This document shows, piece by piece, positions 16,107 through 33,500 of a stretch of DNA of 64,000 nt; the first letter of the stretch is position 1, and each line of letters starts with the position of its first letter. The notes under the pieces were generated by a model. It ran no database searches, was not told the DNA's origin, and saw only the letters and a program-made list of their open reading frames with translations. The position numbers and the translations under genes are program-made. Origin of the DNA: Tubulanus polymorphus (taxonomy: Eukaryota > Nemertea > Palaeonemertea > Tubulaniformes > Tubulanidae); the NCBI RefSeq assembly GCF_964204645.1, contig NC_134033.1:4369731-4433730 (forward strand), in the 5' to 3' direction.

Positions 16107-16115
16107 CATTTTACG
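16107..16115 (+). repeat. Left 9-bp target-site duplication
   Basis: CATTTTACG immediately precedes the left inverted repeat and is repeated exactly at 24706-24714. A 9-bp duplication is the length typical of Mutator-like transposases. Confidence 0.93.
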
Positions 16116-16179
16116 CGGTATTCGAAAAACGCCTAATGAAAAACACCGAATCGGAAAACGCATAACGCCTAATTCCTAG
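16116..16179 (+). repeat. Left terminal inverted repeat, 64 bp
   Basis: Begins CGGTATTCGAAAAACGCC and ends CGCCTAATTCCTAG. All 64 positions match the reverse complement of 24642-24705. Short internal motifs recur (AAAACGC, CGCCTAAT), which could be transposase-binding units. Confidence 0.95.
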
Positions 16180-16921
16180 CAATATCCAAGAAATTGACCT
16201 AAATCCCTACGTGAACTATGTAACGCAAAAAACCGATACGGTCTTTTGCAATAAATTGGATTGACATTTTTACGGTTGAAGAGTGCGTGGAGCCCCGCTT
16301 GTTCCGTTTCTACTAACGTTCGACGTTCGTTTGGTTACGCTACAAAAACACGATTATCGGTACTACGTTTGATTGATTATTCAGCAGTAGGTATTCTTTT
16401 TGATTATTGTTTAATGTTTAACCTTCGTTACTTCTACTACTTGCGTAGGCCGAATAAGTAGTACTATAGGCCTAGCGTCAGCGATGATTTTTTATTTTTG
16501 CTGCTTCAACTTGTTGAATGTTGGAATGTTGGCCTACTTTTTAGCCTCTATCATCCTTCCAATCTACTAACGACTTACAGTATACAGGTCAGCTAAACTA
16601 CTAATATTACACTCAGTTAACCTAACCAAAACTTAGTGGTATTCTAGCCTTTATTATAAAAATGGGATCGAGGACATCAATTAATTATTATAATTTTAAA
16701 AAATGACGTTTATGATTAAAAGGTAAAAGGGTCCATACAGAAGAGGGTTCGAATCTGGAATTTTCTGTAAACCTTTTTCCTTCAATTGTCACGCAGCTCA
16801 GTGATTTTTAGTATTTATCTAATTCTGTATATCTGTATATGTACGTCACCACATTCAATTCACATAGGCCTATGACACTAATTCCTTGTTTCTTCTAGTT
16901 TCACTGTAATTAACCATTCCT

Positions 16922-19900
16922 ATGGAACCTGTTTCCCTCGAGAATTTGAACAACTGCAGTTGTTATATGAATGCAGTTATTCAATCACTCCGCTGTTTGC
17001 CCGAGTTTGTCGAGCGTTTGCAGAGGCACACCGCTGTAGAAGAATGTAAGTAATGGACTAAAAAAGGACTTATAGCCTAAATTCATGGCTCAATTTCTGA
17101 TACATCTACATTTTTTTTATAGGTTCTGATAAATGTTGCTATCGATGCAAGTTGGCAGATGCATTTGACGGAAATAATGAACCTCTTTTTGAATACGTTG
17201 ATGGTAACTAAAAAATTCTGTTTTTTTATGGGTTACTCGCATAGGCACTGTATGTTTGTATTGTATAAAGAAATATATTTCTAGAAATTATACCTAATGG
17301 CTGTCAAGTCGAGCAGCAAGATGCCGAGGAGTTCTTTTTAGGACTCCTACGAAAAATTCGTCAGGAAGATTTGTAAGTATTAAACCTCCAATGTATGTGG
17401 TTTGGCCTCCATAAATGAATTTCATGCATGCAATGATGACAATTTATTTTTCAGAGTTTTAGGAGATATGTTCAAATCCACATGGATTCAGACGAGTAAG
17501 CATGCTTTGAATAATAAACTGATTGTTTATCATATGAAAAGTTTTGGCCATTCCACTGTATCTGATGACTTATATACTGAATATATTTATATAGGCCTAT
17601 GGATAATTACTGCCATCTATTACTGTCGTCTTAGAGTGATCTTTTGTCATGATTTCAGCGACATGTGAACAATGTGGGTTCGAAAATAAACTATCTGATT
17701 ATACGCCGATCACCTCTTTGCCATGCGTGGTTGGTATTTGAATTTTGTGGTTTTGTGCTTCATGACAATTTTAATTTAATTTTAATCTTCGCACAATAAT
17801 TTTGACATTTTTTGCAGGATTCTACAGATGGTTCGCTTGTGTCGAACATCCCCAAAGGTCTTGGAATCATGGATCGAAGTGAAACTATAGATTTTCGTTG
17901 CAGCAGGTATGTGTCTTTTGTAGAATTCACGATTTGTAATTCCACTAACATAGTGTTAGTTTTGTGATTTTTTTTCAGGTGTGGATTTTCTTCTGCAAAA
18001 CAATCGCGAAAATTAGCAGGGAAAAGCAGTGGAAAATATATGGCGATACACTTAAAACGGTATGTTTCTTAATATTGAGGGTACCGGTTTTAAAATTTTG
18101 TGAGCACTGTACATATACAGTTGTTTTTCATTATTTGTCTTGCCGACGCATAGACACGGTTTTAAATTGGCTTCCCAGACAATAACTGATTGAGTTTTCA
18201 ACTTAGACTGAATAATCATCACTCATTGGAGACATGTAATGATGAATTATACTATACATGTGTTATACAGTGAATGTGTGCATGCGACTAATACATAATG
18301 ATACATTCTGTTTTTTTTCAGATCTACCGTCTTCGTGCTAAGTATCCTCTGCCTATTATCATTAGACACTATTATTATGTTGATAAATGTATTTTTATGA
18401 TATTCTCATTCTATACATGTACATCTCAGATATTCTTTTTGATTGTATAAGCTTACATGTATTTGTCTCATTTTCATATCAAATATCTCTTTCTAAGATT
18501 TATATACACCTCTGGTGCAGAGCACATATACTTAATCGCTGTTTCTATCATATTCTCAATCGTATACGACTATATGAGTGGATAATGGTTGCCTAAATGG
18601 TGGTAGCATTTTCAAGCTGGCAGTTAGTTACATGAAAAGCATATACCATTTTTATTTCCAGCTATGCATTTGATAGCTTTTCAAGGACAATTCAAAGATT
18701 AGCGCATGACATTCACGCACCTATAAAACTGATGGGTCAAATGGGCAAAGAAATAGTATGTATATTTATTGAGTTTTGATACTGAGAAAACCAGTTATAG
18801 GTAATAATGACCTTATTTCTTCGCAGGTGCGCTATTCTTTGAAAAGTATTGTCCTTCATAGTGGCCATTCAACCAGATCTGGACACTACACTAGTGTGGT
18901 TAAATATGGTTGCAATTGGTTTTATGTGAATGATGATAATGTAAGTAAGATGATACACCTGACACTAATGTAACTACGGTAACAGTTTTTGGTTTGGCAA
19001 TATACTTAAATATTCATGTTTTGTTTTAGTATGATTCAACTTATATGTCTCGGCAATTCGATGGAGATTCATATATTGTGTTCTATGAACAGGATAATGT
19101 AAGCATTACATTCTTTCAACCACCATGTGCTTTTAAAATATTTTATAGCCCAATTTCTGGGGGGGGTGTTGAATAATGAAATTTTATGATTGTTTGGCAT
19201 TTCAAACCACTTCCCAAGTGGGTGTGGTTGCATTCCCTGGACCCCTAGTTTCCTTTTATAATATTACTATATCAAATCATTTTAGGATGAATTTCCAACA
19301 ACTCTGGAAAATGTTGGGGAAGTAGAAATTCAGCACCGTTGGATATGGAATCAAGTTGCATGTAAACAAAAAAAGAAAAAATGTGTAGGAAATTTCTATT
19401 TATTATCATTGACATAGATTATCAATATATGAGATTTTGTTCCAATATTTAATGTTATTGTAGGAATCAATGGTAAGAATGTCAAATAAGAAAAGAAGGG
19501 TGGAACGATCAAAGTAAGTGCAGATTATTGATTTAGAGTTATGATCCATGTAGACCTTTACTACATGTTCCAGTGTACATTTATATGTGTTTAATGGCTT
19601 AAAATTAGAACCCTGTTGAACAGATGAATCTATGTAGGATTTAAATATTCCTTTTTAGGGGTACAAACTTGAAGTGCAAGTTATGTATGTTTACATCGCA
19701 TTCGAAGTCTGGCATGATAGACCATCAAGTAGATAAGCATTTAAATGAATATATGGAAGAGATCGAAAATGATAGGTCAGTGAAATTTTGCAATATCTCT
19801 CTTAACTCTTCAATTTAACCTCATTAATTCTACATGCAAAATATAAAGTTTTTCAGGGATATATATATATACACCCTATTCAATTAGCTACTTTCTGAAA

Positions 19901-20127
19901 CTGAGCTATTTTCGGGGCAGAGCTATGTATGTAAGTCGGCTATTGTTATAAAAATTGGATATTGCAGTGAAGCTGATACATCCCCCAGTAAAAACTCTCC
20001 AGAATACATTGATATCTCGACATCTGATGAAGAAGATTTATCAAGGTAGGTTTCAACTTGTATATGAAAAGCCCTTAACTCTCCAATTTAACCTCATTAA
20101 TTCTACATGCAAAATATAAAGTTTTTC

Positions 20128-20205
<78 letters not shown>

Positions 20206-23200
20206 ACCCTATTCAATTAGCCACTTTCTGAAACTGAGCTATTTTCGGGGGCAGAGCTATGTAAGTCGGCTATTGTTATAAAAATTGGATATTGCAGTAC
20301 ATCCCCCAGTAAAAACTCGCCAGAATACATTGATATCTCGACATCATCTGATGAAGAAGATTTATCAAGGTAGGTTTCAACTTGTATATGAAAAGCTACT
20401 TTCATTCTTAGGTCTTAGGTAATTTGCTGCACTATTAGAAAATATATTATAATTGTTTTAATTTTTTCATAGTAAGCCTCCTAGAATTATTGTATCAGCT
20501 GAAAATTCTGAATCTGATGAACTACCGAGTTATGAAAATATTATGTAGGTTATCGATTCCTCATATTCCAAGCCATCTGTAAAAAATATTTTAAAACGAA
20601 TTATCCTTTACTGTTTTAGGCGCCATTCATCAGAAAAGGATACCTGTGATCAGATTCAGGTTGAACCAATAATGATATCGTCAGATGATGAGTGTCATGC
20701 CCATAGTCATACTATTAAGTAAGTTATTTCAAAATTCAGTATAGATTCTAAATAATTTCTAACGCACTTTCCAGAGAATTGTTGATTTCTTTTGTTTTAG
20801 ATATCTGAATGAAGATCGATGCCTCCCTGTTTTCAGCTCTGAAAAAGAAATTTCCGTCAGTGATGTCTGTGAAGCACTTCTGGAACAACATGATAGAATT
20901 TGCTCAAAAGTACCATATCGGTGTCAAGAAAACATGCATTTCATTGTTTCATTGAATGAGGTACCTGAAAGTGACCTAAAATGTGATGGCAATGGAGTCT
21001 TTAAAAATAGGGGTACAACTAAAAAGTTTGTCAAGAAAAGTACAACTTCCGATTATGTATTCTGCGATGAACAGGCAGCAGATTTTATATTGAAAACAAC
21101 TTATTGGAACCACAAAAAATACCCAGACTTTGGGAAAAAAATTAGATTTATAGTTGACAAATCAGGCAATATTTTAAATTCGAGGGCTTCTATCCAATAT
21201 CGATTTTCTGGAGAACCTCACATAATAGAAGTTGCTCCCCATGGCAATGCTCGCAATAATAAACCATACAGCCGAGTTAAACCAAGTGTTGTGGATAAAG
21301 TGAAAGACAATATGCTTGGACAAAGTCAAAGTGAAGCGGTCAGCAGTATCATCAGCTCTCAGAATGGAATTCTCGGAATAACTTCTTTGGCAGACATTCC
21401 CAAAAGATCTCAGGCCTATAAGATTTCACAAAAACATAGAAACGTTACTCATGGGAAAAAAGATGATGAAATATACCATGTTCTAGAACTTTCCAAAAGT
21501 GAATTGAAATTTTTTATCCGAGACATTAAACTCCATCCTGATTTATGTATAATTTTGTATTTAGATGAAACTTTGACAGATATTTACCGCTTTTCATCAG
21601 ATCCTGTTGACATGGCCACAATAACATTCGATCCAACTTTTAAATTTGGAGAATTTGATGTGACACCTATTACCTATAGACATTTACATTTTAAGACTAA
21701 ATCTACTGGTAAGACACCTATTTTTACTGGCCCAGTACTAATTCATTTCAAAAAGTCTAAATCTGTTTACACTGAACTTTTTGATGCAATAACCAAAAAA
21801 TGTCCGGACTTGCAAGATATCCTTTCATTTGGTACAGATGGGGAGAGCGCTTTAAGTGAAGCTGCACATGAGTTTTTTCCAAGTGCTATTCATTTAAGGT
21901 GCACAAGACATTTTCATCAAAACCTAAAAACCCACTTAAACACAATAGATATTCCCCAGGAAGCTAAGAAACGTATTATTACTGAAGTAATTGGCAACAA
22001 AAATGTAAAGGGTTTAATTGATTATGATTTGAATGATTTTGATGAGAAAGCTGTAGATTTATTTGATTCATGGGTTTCATCTTTTTCTCCGAGTATTCTT
22101 CCGTTTATTAATTATATCAAGTCACAGATGACAATGATGAAACAATGTATGATTTCTACTGTACGCTCATCCTCTGGCCTAGGTTTTCCTCCCGATAAAT
22201 TTTATACAAATGTATCAGAAAGTACCAACGCGAAACTAAGAAGATGGGCTCAAAGTAGAGAAATGGGTATTTCCAGTTTTATTAATTCAATTTACAATTT
22301 AGTAAAAGCTGAAAGAGATAGCATAGCTATGGCTTATGCCGGAATAGGTGAATATTTTGAAGTTAGAGATGAGTTCAAACATATTTTATTAGACCCTTCC
22401 CTCTTAGACAAAAGCATTGACCAAAAAAAACTGTTTTTGAAGAAAGCTAATTGTGTAACTATGCACGAATTGCTTAATTCTTCATCTAATATTAATGGTA
22501 CCACGGGTACCCATTCATTATCAGTGTCATGTGACGAAGCAAAATCTGTCTACTCAGTAAAGACTAGTGAAGCAGTTTTGAAAGGGATTTGGAAAAAGGC
22601 AGCCCATGTTCTTAGTTTTGATAATCATATTTCTGATGCACCAAGTCAAAATAACTCAGTTCTAAAATATAGTGTAGTAAGTGAAAGTTCAGATAGAAAC
22701 AATCAGGTTAATTTCTATTTACAACAGAACAAGTTTACGTGTACATGCCCTCAGTACAAATTTCACTCATTATGTTCGCATTCTGTAGCCGTTGCTGAAA
22801 AAGTAAAATTTCTCAAAGAATTTTTAATCTGGCACAAATCATGTAATAAGAAGACAAATCTTACTAGTCTAGCGACGGTTGGGGTGAGTTTATCTGCTGC
22901 TGGAATGAAGGGACAAACTGTTAGAAGATATCGTGGTAATCCTGGTTGTGATAATAGTATTTCCCATTCTGATGATGGTTTTTTTCTTGTATTCTTACTT
23001 GGTGTGCGAATTAAAAAATGTTATGGATGTAGGAAAGAATTTACTGATTTTGATAGATTAACTCCAAGTGATTTGATTGTACGAAAATTAGATTACCGCA
23101 CATACTTAGATAAGAATACAAATAATTTAGGTGTTAGTGACAAACGACAAAATACATATTACCATTTGAATGTTTCTTGTATTAATAAGAAATATCCTAA

Positions 23201-23303
23201 TTTCGTTCCAGGTGCAGTAAAAGTTACTGCAAGTTTACAGGCATCAATGACTGTTGGCCATTTGAAAAACTACCAACAATTTCTTCATAAAGGTTATTTT
23301 TGA
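16922..23303 (+). CDS. USP deubiquitinase / C2H2 / multi-SIM / MULE transposase / SWIM fusion protein
   Basis: Eighteen exons join without a frame break: 16922-17045, 17123-17203, 17285-17372, 17455-17495, 17659-17729, 17818-17906, 17979-18059, 18662-18755, 18827-18940, 19030-19098, 19286-19384 (or 19354), 19464-19513, 19659-19775, 19968-20045, 20298-20369, 20473-20544, 20620-20718, 20801-23303. The product is about 1,313 residues. An in-frame TAA precedes the ATG. USP domain ~5-284: Cys box NCSCYMNAVIQ (Cys14), QQDAEEFF (79-86), zinc pairs CEQC (114) and CSRC (163), His box SGHYTS (His243) and NDD (258-260). Then KKRRVERSK, a C2H2 finger (Cys340/343, His356/361), and SIM-like motifs at ~386-396, 409-420, 427-439 and 463-471. 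Transposase: Asp757, Asp826 (GTDGE), Glu953 (VSESTNA) and CTC..CSH SWIM finger at 1127-1140. A nuclear transposase with deubiquitinase activity is inferred. The exon 11 border and the weak gttggt donor after exon 5 are the least certain joins; two adjacent genes remain possible. Confidence 0.85.
19800..20396 (+). repeat. Tandem duplication containing a SIM-like exon
   Basis: Unit 1 (~19800-20072) and unit 2 (~20073-20396) share the same intron, exon (19968-20045 and 20298-20369) and donor sequence. Both exons start and end in phase 2, so the duplication keeps the frame. Unit 2 differs by a six-codon-region change at its start, one added Ser codon and an expanded (TA)n tract. Confidence 0.93.
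20131..20203. repeat. (TA)n microsatellite
   Basis: Pure TA dinucleotide run of about 73 bp in the intron of the second unit of the tandem duplication. The matching site in the first unit holds only about five TA units, so the tract expanded after the duplication. Confidence 0.97.
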
Positions 23304-24641
23304 TTTTAGATCAATGAATTCAATTTTTCTGATTATCATTTAACTCTTATTTTCAGTGGATCGAGTGTGATCTATCGAGTTTGTGTACCAGTTTGTAGCC
23401 TATGCATTGATTAGTGAAGAAATATATGTATTTATGCATTGGTAAGAAAACTTATCATTTTTCAGTTTTTCATTTAATACTTCCAATGTCTATTTAACCT
23501 TATTTGGGTGAAGTAACTCAGTTTTGGTTATAAAGTACCAACCTTCCCAATGTCCCAGATCAATGTGTCAATAAAGTTTGAAAATATGCCTTCTGTTTCT
23601 ATGCCTACAAACCGAGATACGTGTATTTTCAAAACATTTTTATCATGGTTTGTAGGTAATTTAGACATTGGAAACAGAAAATGAAGACTTTTTTCTCCGA
23701 TTCTGTTTTAGTAAATTAGAGAACTTTTGACATTCCTTCAATATAGCGTAAAATGCATGAAAAAATTGATGTTTTAGTTCCACTGTCCACTGCTGGTGAT
23801 TTACGGACATATTAATTAGGTAAATACGTCAGTTGTTAAAGTACAAGTATTTCCTTGGGTGTAAGCCTACGTGGCCATCCATAAAGTATGCATGCACAAC
23901 TTCTTATATTTTTAATTCCCTTGACTCAATTATGTGTAACGAAGAGAGAAGTTGATAAGAAATCAGGGAGTGTACCGAAGTGATACGTAAGTGTACCGGT
24001 TTTATACTGCTAATAAATCTTGTTATTATTTCATGATAATAAAAGACATTTATTTTTGATATGGAACTTAGTTTATTATTTTTGTCTTTGAGTTCAGGGG
24101 CTGAGATCATTTACATCTCTCGTTGGTAGGCCTAATCTGAATTAGACTCACATAGCGTGGATGTGAACCGTTGGAGGATTATTTGAGAAAGGCTATCAGT
24201 CTTCGTGCGCGTTGCCGTTGTACAATATTTATGCACGACCATCTAATGATTCCGGCATTCAAAATTCAAGGCCGGTTTTAAAGGGTAGATCCTAATAGGC
24301 TCGTCATGCACATTGACTGTATGGACTTAAAAACTCTTGAAAAATACCCCAAAAAGTCAGGAGTCGAACACGCTAACACCGGAGTGTAAGCGTAACGTTT
24401 TACCGCAGCACTAGCGATGCGAGGTTCCGAAACCGCATTTTGTAACTATGTAAAGCCTACCCCATAGTATTTAACCATAAACCCTCTTGATACTAACCCT
24501 TCTGATCTTTCTAATATCATCGGTTGAGAAAGCTGCCATTTTTCCGTTATGTAATTGAATTGGATTGTGAGTATCACTAAATAGTATGTAACGAAAGTGA
24601 CAATATCGGTAAATAGCACAGCTTCTAAATTAGGTCATTTT
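23304..24641. other. 3' noncoding part of the transposon
   Basis: About 1.3 kb between the transposase stop codon and the right inverted repeat. It holds the likely polyadenylation signal and no further credible open frame. Confidence 0.7.
23570..23575 (+). promoter_or_regulatory. Probable polyadenylation signal of the USP-MULE gene
   Basis: AATAAA lies 267 bp after the stop codon and is followed by a T/G-rich stretch. Other A/T-rich hexamers occur nearby, so the site used is a guess. Confidence 0.5.
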
Positions 24642-24705
24642 CTAGGAATTAGGCGTTATGCGTTTTCCGATTCGGTGTTTTTCATTAGGCGTTTTTCGAA
24701 TACCG
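24642..24705 (-). repeat. Right terminal inverted repeat, 64 bp
   Basis: Starts CTAGGAATTAGGCG and ends TTTTTCGAATACCG. It is the exact reverse complement of 16116-16179 over all 64 bp. Confidence 0.95.
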
Positions 24706-24714
24706 CATTTTACG
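24706..24714 (+). repeat. Right 9-bp target-site duplication
   Basis: CATTTTACG, identical to 16107-16115. The rebuilt empty site would read tgtgtg-CATTTTACG-tgacgc. Confidence 0.93.
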
Positions 24715-24765: not shown

Positions 24766-25833
24766 ATGAATTTCAGTTCGCAGACGACTTCACTACTCTC
24801 TACAACTACTAGAAATCCCTGCACACCTTACTTATTCCAAAACGTATTGTCAATCAGCGTAAAACTAGCTGGAGGTTTTCCTATCAGTATCGTCGGAATA
24901 ATTTTGAATAGTTTCAGCATTGTGATTTTACGTCGCCAAACTTCAAATCACATATGGCTCTACATTCTGCGATGTCTGGCAGTGGCTGACATAATCTTTC
25001 TTACATTTCACATAATTCAAGAGCCTTTTCGTTTCATTGTCTCCGGTTTGACCCAGGGTAGTCATATGTTCGTGATTCCTACGAGTATGAGTTGGGGTAT
25101 TCGGCCATGGATCTATCGGGTAGCTTGGTTACCGAGAAACTCAGCGCAAGTGACAAGGAACTGGATAACTGTACTACTAGTTTTAGAAAGGTCTTTTTCT
25201 ATCGCTAGGCCATTCTTCGCTAGAACTCATTTCACAATACCAAGGGTAAGAATTGTAGTTTGTTGTTTCTATATTATTTTTGGTATCTTAGGCTCTCCAT
25301 TGATTATCGGTACTACAGTAGGTATCTGGTTTTATGACGAATGTAATAAAGTCGTTATAAAATCTATCCGCCCAGCAAGCGATCCCATACGAAAATACTT
25401 TCTCATTGAAATATTTACGTGGATTGATCACTTTCCTAATCCTTTGTATAAAGAAATCCTACCTGCTTTTTTGCTAATTACTTTCAACAGCCATCTGATA
25501 TGGACTCTGAGAAAGATTAGTTCCAGGAGAAAAGAAATGACACAAGAAGGCGAACAAAGGCTAGACGTGAAAGCTATCAGGATAGCTGTACCTATTGTTA
25601 TTTTGTTTGTCGTCTGCAAAATCCCTGCTTCGTTCCGATCTTATAACAGTTTCATCGGTCGCTTCGTCAAAATGCCACCTATTAAATACTCTCACACCAT
25701 CTATACCCTTCAAGAACTGTTTACCGATCTTTTACCGACCTTGAACTCGTCTGTAAATTTCTTTATCTATTACATAGCAAACGATAATTTTAGAGGAACT
25801 GCAATAAAATTGTTGAGAAGGCGGCCAATTTAA
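24766..25833 (+). CDS. Rhodopsin-class neuropeptide-receptor-like GPCR (intronless)
   Basis: A single open frame of 355 codons from a true ATG. The N-terminus carries NFSS, a glycosylation site. Seven hydrophobic helices follow. TM1 contains GIILNSFSIVIL, TM2 LAVADIIFL, and TM3 ends LVLERSFSIARPF, so ERS stands in place of DRY. TM6 is preceded by a KAIRIAVPI stretch, and TM7 reads SSVNFFIYYIANDNF with NFFIY in place of NPxxY. This pattern fits the FMRFamide-receptor-like families that are expanded in lophotrochozoans; the ligand cannot be read from sequence. The start codon lies 51 bp beyond the target duplication of the upstream MULE, so its native promoter may have been displaced 8.6 kb away. 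It is only distantly similar to the GPCRs at 42.9 and 48.0 kb. Confidence 0.88.
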   Translation: MNFSSQTTSLLSTTTRNPCTPYLFQNVLSISVKLAGGFPISIVGIILNSFSIVILRRQTSNHIWLYILRCLAVADIIFLTFHIIQEPFRFIVSGLTQGSHMFVIPTSMSWGIRPWIYRVAWLPRNSAQVTRNWITVLLVLERSFSIARPFFARTHFTIPRVRIVVCCFYIIFGILGSPLIIGTTVGIWFYDECNKVVIKSIRPASDPIRKYFLIEIFTWIDHFPNPLYKEILPAFLLITFNSHLIWTLRKISSRRKEMTQEGEQRLDVKAIRIAVPIVILFVVCKIPASFRSYNSFIGRFVKMPPIKYSHTIYTLQELFTDLLPTLNSSVNFFIYYIANDNFRGTAIKLLRRRPI

Positions 25834-30557: not shown

Positions 30558-33500
30558 ATGAAGACGCGTCTGTTCTTTATTATCTGCACAGTTTTGTTGC
30601 AACTGGGAAATTTATACATTACACAAACATCTGGAGCTGAAAGTAAGTTACTGCAGCAGCCATTACTAGACTTTGTGATTATATTTCAGTCAGATTTGCG
30701 AATTCGATGACGTCAGCTGTTTAATAATAGATTTTCTACAGGCCCTAAATGCAACCTGACAAAACAACAAACTATAAACACATCTGGTTGACTTAATTTC
30801 GCATGAAGTTTGTATCTTGATGTCTGGTTTGATAAAAAACGAGTCGCTCATATAATCACCTCACTAACCAGGGGCGGAGTCAGACGTTTGAGTAGAGGGG
30901 TCAAGTGCAGTTTTTTCCCAGGTATCTCTTATATATTTCAATGAAAAATACATTCATAAATTAACCGTGTGCAGTAATTTCCGGCAGACGCCGCGAAACA
31001 GAAATAGATAAAGATTTGAATCGTGGTTTATTTCATCATTAATATGATTGATGTTTATATTCATTTGTTTCAGCAATTTACAGGACGCCTCATTCTGCTC
31101 GAGATGCAAAACCCGACAATAAAATGCAAGGAGAAACGATTCGATATACTTGTAAAATAATTGGCGGAAATTCTAAAGTATCATTCCAAGAGAAGAGAAA
31201 AGGTTCGGAACAATGGTTAACAGTTCCAGACGACCAGCTTCGCAGAACTAACGACAAACAGAATCATGTTGAGTTGGTTGAGCTAAGATTCCGAGCAGAT
31301 TTCAAACTACACAATGGATCTTCATTTAGATGTCTTATAAATGAAAGCCCAACAGATCCGGAACCTAATCAGTTTGATCTGATCGTAGTTAAACGAACTG
31401 GTAAGTAACCGTTTGAGTTGCTTATTGAAATAATCAAATAATCTAGAGCATTAACTTGCATTCTTGGTTTTCCTAGAAATATCATATAGTCAAATTGAGC
31501 TGATAAAATGTCTGATATCTGGTGTTTGTAGAGTTCGTTTTTAGCCCATTTTGGACTTTAGTCCCAGCGGGCTAGTGCGTTCACTTTTCGTCCGTAGACG
31601 GGATCCAGTTATTTTGACGAAGTTTCAAGACTGGCAGCCATTGTTGTTCGCCAAAATCAGCACTTTTTCCACATTTTTCAAGTTTTTAAGGGAAATTTTG
31701 AAGAGACTTTTATCAATTATCGTGGTCTTTCGTAAATGTTTTCATCCCCCAAAGGGCCCATCAGCACGAGAAAAATTTGGCCGATAGGACTCAAGATGGT
31801 CGTCCTCTGACCTAGGCGCTACAAATATCAATCGATGTAGATTTTGATTGTGGTTAGTTCCATCATTAAATGATTGATCTCACTATCAGAAATAATCTGA
31901 ACACGAAGCATGGGAGGGGTTCGATAGCCTCTAACACCCCACCCCCCCCCCCCTCCTTGGATTTTCTTCTGATAAGTTTTTCGAAGTTTGACCGAGTACT
32001 GTGCTGGGGAAGGCTATTTAATGTGTACTGTGCTATATATTTATATTCATTCGTTTCAGAAATCATTCCAATGCCAGATCTCAAAGGAAACCCCGACAGT
32101 AAAACACAAGGAGAAATTGTAAATTACACTTGTAAAATTGTCGGAAATTTTAATGCAACATTAACATTCCAAGAGAAGAGAAGAGCTTCGGAACAATGGG
32201 AAACAATTCCAGACGACAAGCTTCACAGAGCTAGCAAAAAGAATGTCCATTCCGTTGAGCTAAAATTCCAAGCAGATTTCAAACTGCACAATGGAACGTC
32301 TTTTAGATGTCTAGTAAAGGAAAGCCCAACAGATCCCGAACCTATTCAGTTTGATCTAATCGTACTAGTTAATCGAACAGGTAAGTAACTGTTTGTATAG
32401 CTAATTGAAATAGTTAAACAACTTAGAACATTAAAACTTGCTTTCTTGGTTTTCCTACAAATATCAAAGAGTCAAATTGTGCCGATAAAATGTCCAATGC
32501 CTGGTGTTTGTTGTTTCATCCGTAGTTTCATTTTCTTTTAAAAATATCCCTGGTCAAGTGCTGAACACATGCGGAGAATGGACGACCAATTTTTGAAAGT
32601 ATTCTTTTAAAGAATCTCATGTAAATATCATCTGTTTCGACATCGAATTTACTTTTGTTTTCACGCATTATTTTCGTTGGACCGCGGTTTGTTGCCTCCT
32701 CGTTGATGTATCTATTCCGTCCGTTCATCTCCGTACAAGAATAAATTTTGTGTCACCATTTTACGGCTCTCAGATTTAAGAGTTAGATTTCGTTGATTTC
32801 ACTGTCTGGGCCCAGTTCCACAGTTGTGAATTAAGAGTTGACTCAGAGTTAACTCATTGAAAATGAACTAAATTAACTCAAGTTAACGCTAACTCAGAAC
32901 TGTGGAACTGGATGCTGAAGCACTGTTGTCTGACTGGCCACGCAGGAAGTATTCTTTATTTGGCGCCGCATTCATAACGGATCTCATTTCGTGTTTGTTG
33001 TTCATTTTATGCGAAAAGGCACATTGGTTTACAAATCAGCTATTTTGCGTTCCGGGTACTATACTTAGTTTACGCGAAGATCCAGCATAAGGTTTTCTAG
33101 AATTTTTTGCACAGTCAAAAGAGTGAAAAAATTGCCTAACATCATTAACTTCATCAGGTGACGGGTGGAAACCAATGGCTGAAAAATGGCTAAAAGCTGG
33201 GTGGGTCTAGGAGGAGGTATGACATCATGTGACCAGTGATAGTTAATTACTATTAGGCGTTACTACGGTGTTAAATGCATATTTGTTCATTACGGAAAAC
33301 ACTTTTTTCCAGGCTACTTTGAAAGCAAAACCACTAGCAGTGAAAGTTACTTTCAAAATGTAGTTTTTTTCTCTCATTTCAGATGATTCAAGTTCCACTC
33401 AAATCCCGACGACTGAAACCACTACATTCGGGTCAGTATTCATTTCGAGCTAAAAATGTCCGACGGAAAAGGTTCCTAGACGATGTACGGGTTCCTGTTG

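Follow-up and report, generated by a model that had tools for sequence, protein, structure and literature searches.

Proteases of the ubiquitin and SUMO families recur in unrelated transposons. In the parts of the publications covered here, to which all citations below are limited, the Ginger1 transposases carry a C-terminal ovarian tumour (OTU) or Ulp1 domain, Ulp1 is cited for hydra, lancelet and plant Mutator elements, and a protein of Trichomonas vaginalis, XP_001314237.1, is given in one sentence as Transposase_11 plus Peptidase C19; an active role in transposition was proposed for such proteases (PMC2836005). Among Mutator-like elements (MULEs), an OTU domain is listed for MuDR-6_HM, and some groups carry a second open reading frame (ORF) (PMC6446971). 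Ulp1 in plant Vandal elements is reviewed as being of unknown function but conserved in eudicots, a conservation that suggests an advantage, and some of their anti-silencing VANC genes have a Ulp1 domain (PMC13317346). Here we describe a complete MULE in the palaeonemertean nemertean Tubulanus polymorphus, in which a ubiquitin-specific protease (USP) is predicted to be fused to the N-terminus of the transposase. It lies at positions 16116-24705 of the window, i.e., the whole 64,000-nucleotide stretch that was analysed.

The element resembles Ginger1 (Hydra, Aplysia, aphid) in being an animal element with terminal inverted repeats and a DDE transposase fused to a cysteine protease of the ubiquitin/SUMO system (PMC2836005), but Ginger1 has a Gypsy-integrase-like transposase and a C-terminal OTU or Ulp1, whereas a MULE/SWIM transposase with an N-terminal USP is found here, which places it outside Ginger1. 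With the MULEs bearing Ulp1 or OTU (plants; Hydra and lancelet; MuDR-6_HM) it shares the pairing with a deubiquitinase-like or SUMO protease, but those proteases belong to other families, with no C19/USP in the parts covered, and in plant Kaonashi the protease is one of the three genes of the element. XP_001314237.1, compared by its description only, also joins a USP-type (C19) domain to a transposase (PMC2836005), but the transposase is of the Transposase_11 family and the organism is a protist. In animal MULE families (Phantom, MULE-Mollusca, Curupira and others), 9-bp duplications, terminal inverted repeats and SWIM or C2H2 fingers occur, but no protease other than that of MuDR-6_HM is listed in the table rows covered (PMC6446971). 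Host USPs (USP2, USP21, USP36, USP14) have the same catalytic motifs and zinc pairs, with profile E-values down to 4e-18, whereas the USP described here is a compact domain of 284 aa that lies within a transposon and has a Cys box longer by one residue. What is new here is the USP (C19) type of the protease and its long retention in a MULE, which extends the known theme of a transposase with a ubiquitin-family protease. A preliminary description of this DNA, made from its letters alone, knew of no described USP-MULE fusion in an animal. No report of one was found among the publications listed by literature searches either, which is weak evidence as most subscription journals and Repbase lay outside the scope; the broader pairing is already known in animals from Ginger1 and the hydra and lancelet Mutator elements (PMC2836005). 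Its statement that plant MULEs carry Ulp1 genes was right (PMC2836005, PMC13317346). In the parts covered, the words protease and ubiquitin are absent from a report on arthropod MULEs (PMC13359780), and none of six related terms is present in a screen for domains co-occurring with transposon domains (PMC12062965).

The element, on contig C9, is delimited by the following features.

16116..24705, + strand: complete MULE of 8590 bp, lineage A, defined by the inverted repeats, the 9-bp duplication and a copy on contig C8 matching exactly 16116-24705
16107..16115, no strand: left target-site duplication, 9 bp, CATTTTACG
24706..24714, no strand: right target-site duplication, 9 bp, CATTTTACG
16116..16183, + strand: left terminal inverted repeat, 66/68 identical to the right repeat
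24638..24705, - strand: right terminal inverted repeat, 68 bp

The bounds proposed in the preliminary description proved exact, with the repeats and the duplication on either side, and its 64-bp matching ends are the outermost part, free of differences, of repeats that run to 68 bp. A second lineage A copy (L009), on C8, is 99.4% identical over precisely 16116-24705, and 51 gap positions account for nearly all of the differences. The 18 coding exons of this copy have zero mismatches and zero gaps, and it is flanked by its own 9-bp duplication, GATGGAAAA. The left end has at least 42 matches in the genome. Short elements sharing the lineage A ends are present elsewhere in the genome, and the five pairings checked were 759-782 bp. 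Two of these (L007 and L008) have exact 9-bp duplications and are identical to each other over 782 bp, two (L005 and L006) have 10-bp duplications as judged by eye, and L003, nested among three such ends, had no duplication for the pairing tested. Because of the identical-coding C8 copy with its own duplication, the short elements with duplications and the identity of L007 and L008, we conclude that the lineage A family has moved recently. A 9-bp target-site duplication, as expected of MULEs (9-10 bp), was found in the window, at L009 and at two diverged loci described below (L034 and L035), and the terminal inverted repeats are 68, 90, 94 and 129 bp in lineages A, B, C and D, respectively. 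These features mark the element as a member of an autonomous-looking, recently mobile DNA transposon family.

As had been modelled before, 18 predicted exons, separated by GT-AG introns, form an open frame of 1313 aa from the ATG at 16922, preceded by an in-frame TAA at 16907-16909, to the stop codon ending at 23303. The parts of the gene are as follows.

16922..19098, + strand: exons 1-10, USP deubiquitinase, residues 1-284
19286..19513, + strand: exons 11-12, basic linker with KKKK and KKRR runs
19659..19775, + strand: exon 13, C2H2 finger (C340, C343, H356, H361), kept in diverged copies; labelled by eye, with no Pfam match
19968..20718, + strand: exons 14-17, acidic serine-rich linker with motifs resembling SUMO-interacting motifs (SIMs); exons 14 and 15 tandemly duplicated
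20801..23303, + strand: exon 18, MULE transposase (D757, D826, E953) and SWIM finger (C1127, C1129, C1138, H1140)
23570..23575, + strand: AATAAA inside the element, 3' of the stop codon, from a motif scan

The RefSeq predicted model LOC141911244 (P0001, 823 aa) matches exons 1-17 and the beginning of exon 18 with full identity, and its 17 joins are the same, with the USP exons joined to exon 18. The sequence GT[AG]AG is present at 7 of the 17 donors used, versus 21 of all 488 GTs in the element. On the sense strand, the stretch 17685-21258 is free of AATAAA and ATTAAA. The first Met of exon 18 is residue 525, and the roughly 44 codons before it are matched in three diverged loci (L034, L035, L038). 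Because the frame is open over the 17 joins, RefSeq has the same joins, coding sequence is conserved before the first Met of exon 18 and the polyadenylation signals are absent from 17685-21258, it is strongly suggested that the USP and the transposase are made as one protein, presumably from one transcript.

The transposase is of the MULE/IS256 type of DDE enzymes, and its Pfam match to MULE at residues 797-854 (E 2e-4) is sub-threshold, lying below the curated cut-off, as does the SWIM match at residues 1126-1148 (E 0.004). In an alignment of six sequences, i.e., the element and its relatives P0002-P0006, the D, D and E columns are invariant, and the C-x2-H between them and the SWIM Cys and His residues are also common to all. 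An earlier candidate for the leading catalytic Asp, in YLDET, was replaced by D757 on the evidence of the alignment. The structure predicted from these six sequences (low depth, mean predicted local distance difference test score (pLDDT) 55.8) matches the transposase of ISCth4, which we take to belong to the IS256 family, at 2e-6. A single-sequence prediction of P0001 had a mean pLDDT of 31 and was unusable.

The USP part gave a Pfam UCH match on residues 6-280 in lineage A with an E-value of 2e-23 (88.2 bits against the curated cut-off of 23.9), and a UCH match at E <= 0.01 was obtained in all three lineages A, B and C. We assigned the residue roles on the assumption that they are those of known USPs: Cys14, QQD at 79-81, the zinc Cys residues 114, 117, 163 and 166, His243 and Asn258/Asp259. 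In the alignment of A, B and C, C14, Q79, Q80, D81, C114, C117, C163, C166, G242, H243, Y244 and D259 are invariant, and position 258 is variable. Likewise invariant are H36, C42, C47 and C50, of which the Cys residues align with Cys of USP36; these four could be ligands of a further zinc, beyond the usual zinc pairs. Profile matches were obtained to USP2 (E 4e-18) and, over the whole domain, to USP36 (E 2.4e-17), and USP2, USP21 and USP36 are among the best solved-structure matches. The domain is presumably an active deubiquitinase.

Three SIM-like motifs, IDISTSDEED, IDISTSSDEED and IIVSAENSES, were found in the linker. These three pattern matches compare with a mean of 0.5 in shuffled sequences (P 0.008), a value in which two of the matches derive from one exon duplication. 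Since exons 14 and 15 are tandem duplicates, these two motifs are not independent. The duplication, about 0.3 kb at 19801-20397, carries exon 14/15 and a long (TA)n run, and the C8 copy likewise has the two exons. The linkers of lineages B and C, where the exon models are less certain, hold similar strings (IIISDSDDG; VIEISSDDCTDD, IVISDDSE). The linker may bind SUMO. The domain order given in the preliminary description, from the USP through the C2H2 finger and the SIM-like motifs to the DDE and SWIM parts, stands, with the corrections that two of the SIM-like motifs are not independent and that the Cys box is one residue longer.

The transposase exon gave 58 matches in the genome, and we examined 17 loci, i.e., the window, L009 and 15 diverged or fragmentary loci fetched from these matches. 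Lineage B (L034 on C2, L040 on C10) and lineage C (L035 on C10, L038 on C3) have the USP exons, the C2H2 exon and the transposase exon in one shared order. Lineages A, B and C are about 40-45% identical in protein, and the two copies within B, and likewise those within C, are on different chromosomes and about 99% identical. Within B and C both ends were established at L034, a complete element of 10,887 bp with 90-bp repeats and the duplication CCATTTTAG, and at L035, a complete element of 10,396 bp with 94-bp repeats and the duplication ATGATATGA. In lineage D (L032, L036) the USP is decayed and more diverged, and L032 has 129-bp repeats, for which no matching target-site duplication was found. 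L032 and L036 (C6:14.605 and 14.633 Mb) are 99.7% identical in inverted orientation, with their transposase exons about 25 kb apart.

The USP exon lengths are 124, 81, 88, 41, 71, 89, 81, 94, 114 and 69 in lineage A; by spliced alignment they are 127, 81, 88, 41, 71, 89, 75, 94, 114 and 72 in lineage B, and 124, 81, 88, 41, 71, 83+3, 81, 94, 114 and 63-66 in lineage C. The spliced USP translations of all three are free of stops. By the Nei-Gojobori method, the proportion of replacement differences (pN) of the USP (window, L034, L035) is 0.364 for A-B, 0.398 for A-C and 0.391 for B-C, with the synonymous proportion (pS) at 0.77-0.87. For the transposase, where lineage C was represented by L033 with its open last exon, the pN values are 0.415, 0.398 and 0.393, and pS is 0.75-0.78. 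No pN/pS ratio is given because the synonymous sites are saturated, and the counts within lineages (in B, two synonymous and two replacement differences; in C, three and eight, respectively) are too few for use. In the USP and the transposase alike, replacement change is far less than synonymous change, and it has reached about the same extent in the two. These counts indicate that purifying selection has maintained both with equal strength, and the shared organisation indicates that the two were joined before the family split into its 40-45%-identical lineages.

A gene-like USP is present at 6 of the 17 loci (window, L009, L034, L035, L038, L040). Decayed USPs were found at L032, with a spliced score of 186 against a maximum of 95 for five mononucleotide shuffles, the control used per locus, and at L036 (200 vs 134). 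A single USP motif was found at L042 (His box) and L044 (Cys box), where the scores are not clearly above the shuffles (129 vs 124 and 93 vs 99). The scores of L041 (159 vs 125) and L037 (147 vs 142) exceed the shuffles through alignments lacking USP motifs, and therefore the spliced score alone was not taken as evidence for a USP. A fourth, loose HLKR-like motif pattern matched in many places and was disregarded. When the genome was searched with only the USP, one exon at a time with a threshold of E 0.001, we obtained 34 matches, which we grouped into 12 loci, and a same-strand transposase match lies within 10 kb at ten of them (window, C8, L034, L040, L038, L035, L032, L036, C2:12563406 and C20:115393). 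Nearly all detected USP relatives in this genome therefore belong to the same transposon family. The two others, C6:11966320-11966694 (35%) and C3:15332593-15332721 (40%), are possibly a host progenitor or remnants; no clear host progenitor emerged from this search, which distant host USPs can escape. At C2:12563406 and C20:115393, lineage A-family ends are about 24 kb off the USP-transposase pair, and the two may be a single locus assembled twice or a segmental duplication. Because the USP moved with the element to C8 and has the same place in the complete B and C elements, we conclude that it belongs to the element.

Protein searches with the fusion and with the USP part recovered the host's own model but no USP relative from another animal, and the one further match to the USP part was a yeast protein at E 0.1; these searches say little about distribution because unannotated transposons are likely missed by the database. 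The transposase relatives P0002-P0006 (26-31% identity) have no UCH match and are apparently single-exon ORFs, with their upstream DNA out of view. Scans of viral and prokaryote contigs gave 24 and 86 pattern matches, respectively, with no confirmed relative among them.

The reading that we favour, while giving it about an even chance, is a mobile MULE family encoding one polypeptide of USP, C2H2 finger, SIM-like linker and DDE/SWIM transposase, in which the anciently joined USP shields the transposition complex. The transposase part would bind the inverted repeats, and cut and paste both the element and its non-autonomous relatives of about 0.78 kb. The SIM-like linker would keep the complex at SUMO-rich places, such as chromatin-bound or repair complexes, and the tethered USP would deubiquitylate the transposase complex or whatever adjoins it, thereby preventing ubiquitin-dependent extraction or degradation from cutting the reaction short. 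We favour protection of the complex because the USP is tied to the transposase and to a linker with SIM-like motifs. The preliminary description had offered stabilisation of the transposase and removal of ubiquitin at target chromatin as plausible roles, both of which stay conjectural. This reading builds on anatomy, movement of the whole unit, co-inheritance and selection, all read from the DNA. It supposes a single transcript and protein, catalysis, such a substrate, SUMO binding and mobilisation of the short elements. The element is young, having a second copy of identical coding sequence and numerous short relatives that are non-autonomous; its pairing of USP and transposase is old and selected. 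A narrower and distinctly less likely form is that a SUMO-guided deubiquitinase reads SUMO on the transposition complex and cancels the SUMO-targeted ubiquitylation by which the complex would be removed from DNA; if so, it would be a transposon-borne counter to a host pathway of genome defence or clearance. The role of the protease is directly testable, since the system comprises a single predicted protein, a single catalytic cysteine and natural substrates whose ends match.

Several observations weigh against protection of the complex by a fused, active USP. LOC141911244 leaves exon 18 early, and its last exon, 31073-31405, is outside the element; we take this run-on to be a chimeric prediction. 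(The exon 31073-31405 has a 62% identical stretch at 32068-32385 and no Pfam match.) In A, B and C, the spacing within the Cys box from the presumed oxyanion Asn to the catalytic Cys is one residue longer than in solved USPs and hence not canonical, and for this reason activity is not assured, homology being unaffected. The SIM pattern was composed after the motifs had been seen, it has two more matches beyond the linker, at residues 528 and 731 in the transposase part, and the recent exon 14/15 duplication was counted twice in the test. The spliced linker models of B and C are uncertain, with one stop in that of L034. The preliminary description had named transposase-only copies as a finding that would make the USP a nearby or nested host gene: complete USP-bearing elements exist in A, B and C, but no USP was detected at 7 of the 17 loci, using tblastn, spliced alignment and motifs for L033, L037, L039 and L041, and tblastn and motifs for L043, L045 and L046. 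L045 and L046 are 3' fragments. L033 (C4, lineage C) is truncated, with homology ending 3 bases past the last USP exon (L033 5773 / L035 5729) and no left repeat found. Both USP-bearing C copies carry stops in the last exon, whereas that of L033 is open, so that an open transposase frame does not always go with a USP. In L041, which is only distantly related (27%), a frame of 911 aa is open and no USP was detected.

It is possible, though we think it unlikely, that the same fusion works on chromatin, where the USP would be delivered to target or donor DNA and remove ubiquitin from histones, opening chromatin or blocking silencing like the anti-silencing proteins of plant MULEs. USPs such as USP2, USP21 and USP36 can act on histones, and these three are among the best solved-structure matches. 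The Ulp1 domain in some VANC genes of Vandal elements points in the same direction (PMC13317346). On the other hand, the sequence does not assign the USP to one host subfamily, and the SIM-like linker points to SUMO-marked complexes rather than to nucleosomes as such.

A USP made as a separate protein of the same element, by its own transcript or by cleavage of a precursor, and helping in trans as in two-gene MULEs, seems improbable to us. Met447 and Met465 sit shortly upstream of exon 18, where an internal promoter could yield a shorter transposase, and some MULE groups do carry a second ORF (PMC6446971). However, the open frame across all joins, the RefSeq connection of the USP to exon 18, the matched codons ahead of Met525 and the lack of polyadenylation signals in 17685-21258 argue for one product. 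We find it just as doubtful that the USP part is catalytically dead and serves as a ubiquitin-binding or folding module. The extra residue inserted into the Cys box in A, B and C would fit such a role, but the Cys, His, Asp, QQD and four zinc Cys residues have been retained over deep divergence, and the Cys-box motif of L044 lacks the insertion. A nested or neighbouring host gene in frame by chance, an outcome that the preliminary description had itself raised and that the window alone could not exclude, USPs being ordinary host genes, is so improbable that we reject it: the C8 copy has its own duplication, the order of USP, finger and transposase recurs in two further complete lineages, where the USP exons are of nearly unchanged length, a transposase lies beside the USP at 10 of the 12 loci, and the same joins in RefSeq and the diverged paralogs agree with its judgement that a chance joining of unrelated genes is unlikely.

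Beyond the right end of the element, an intact single-exon ORF resembling a G-protein-coupled receptor (GPCR) occupies 24766-25830 (Pfam 7TM_GPCR_Srw, 4.6e-14). This ORF begins about 60 bp past that end, and its likely start codon therefore has the element a short distance upstream.

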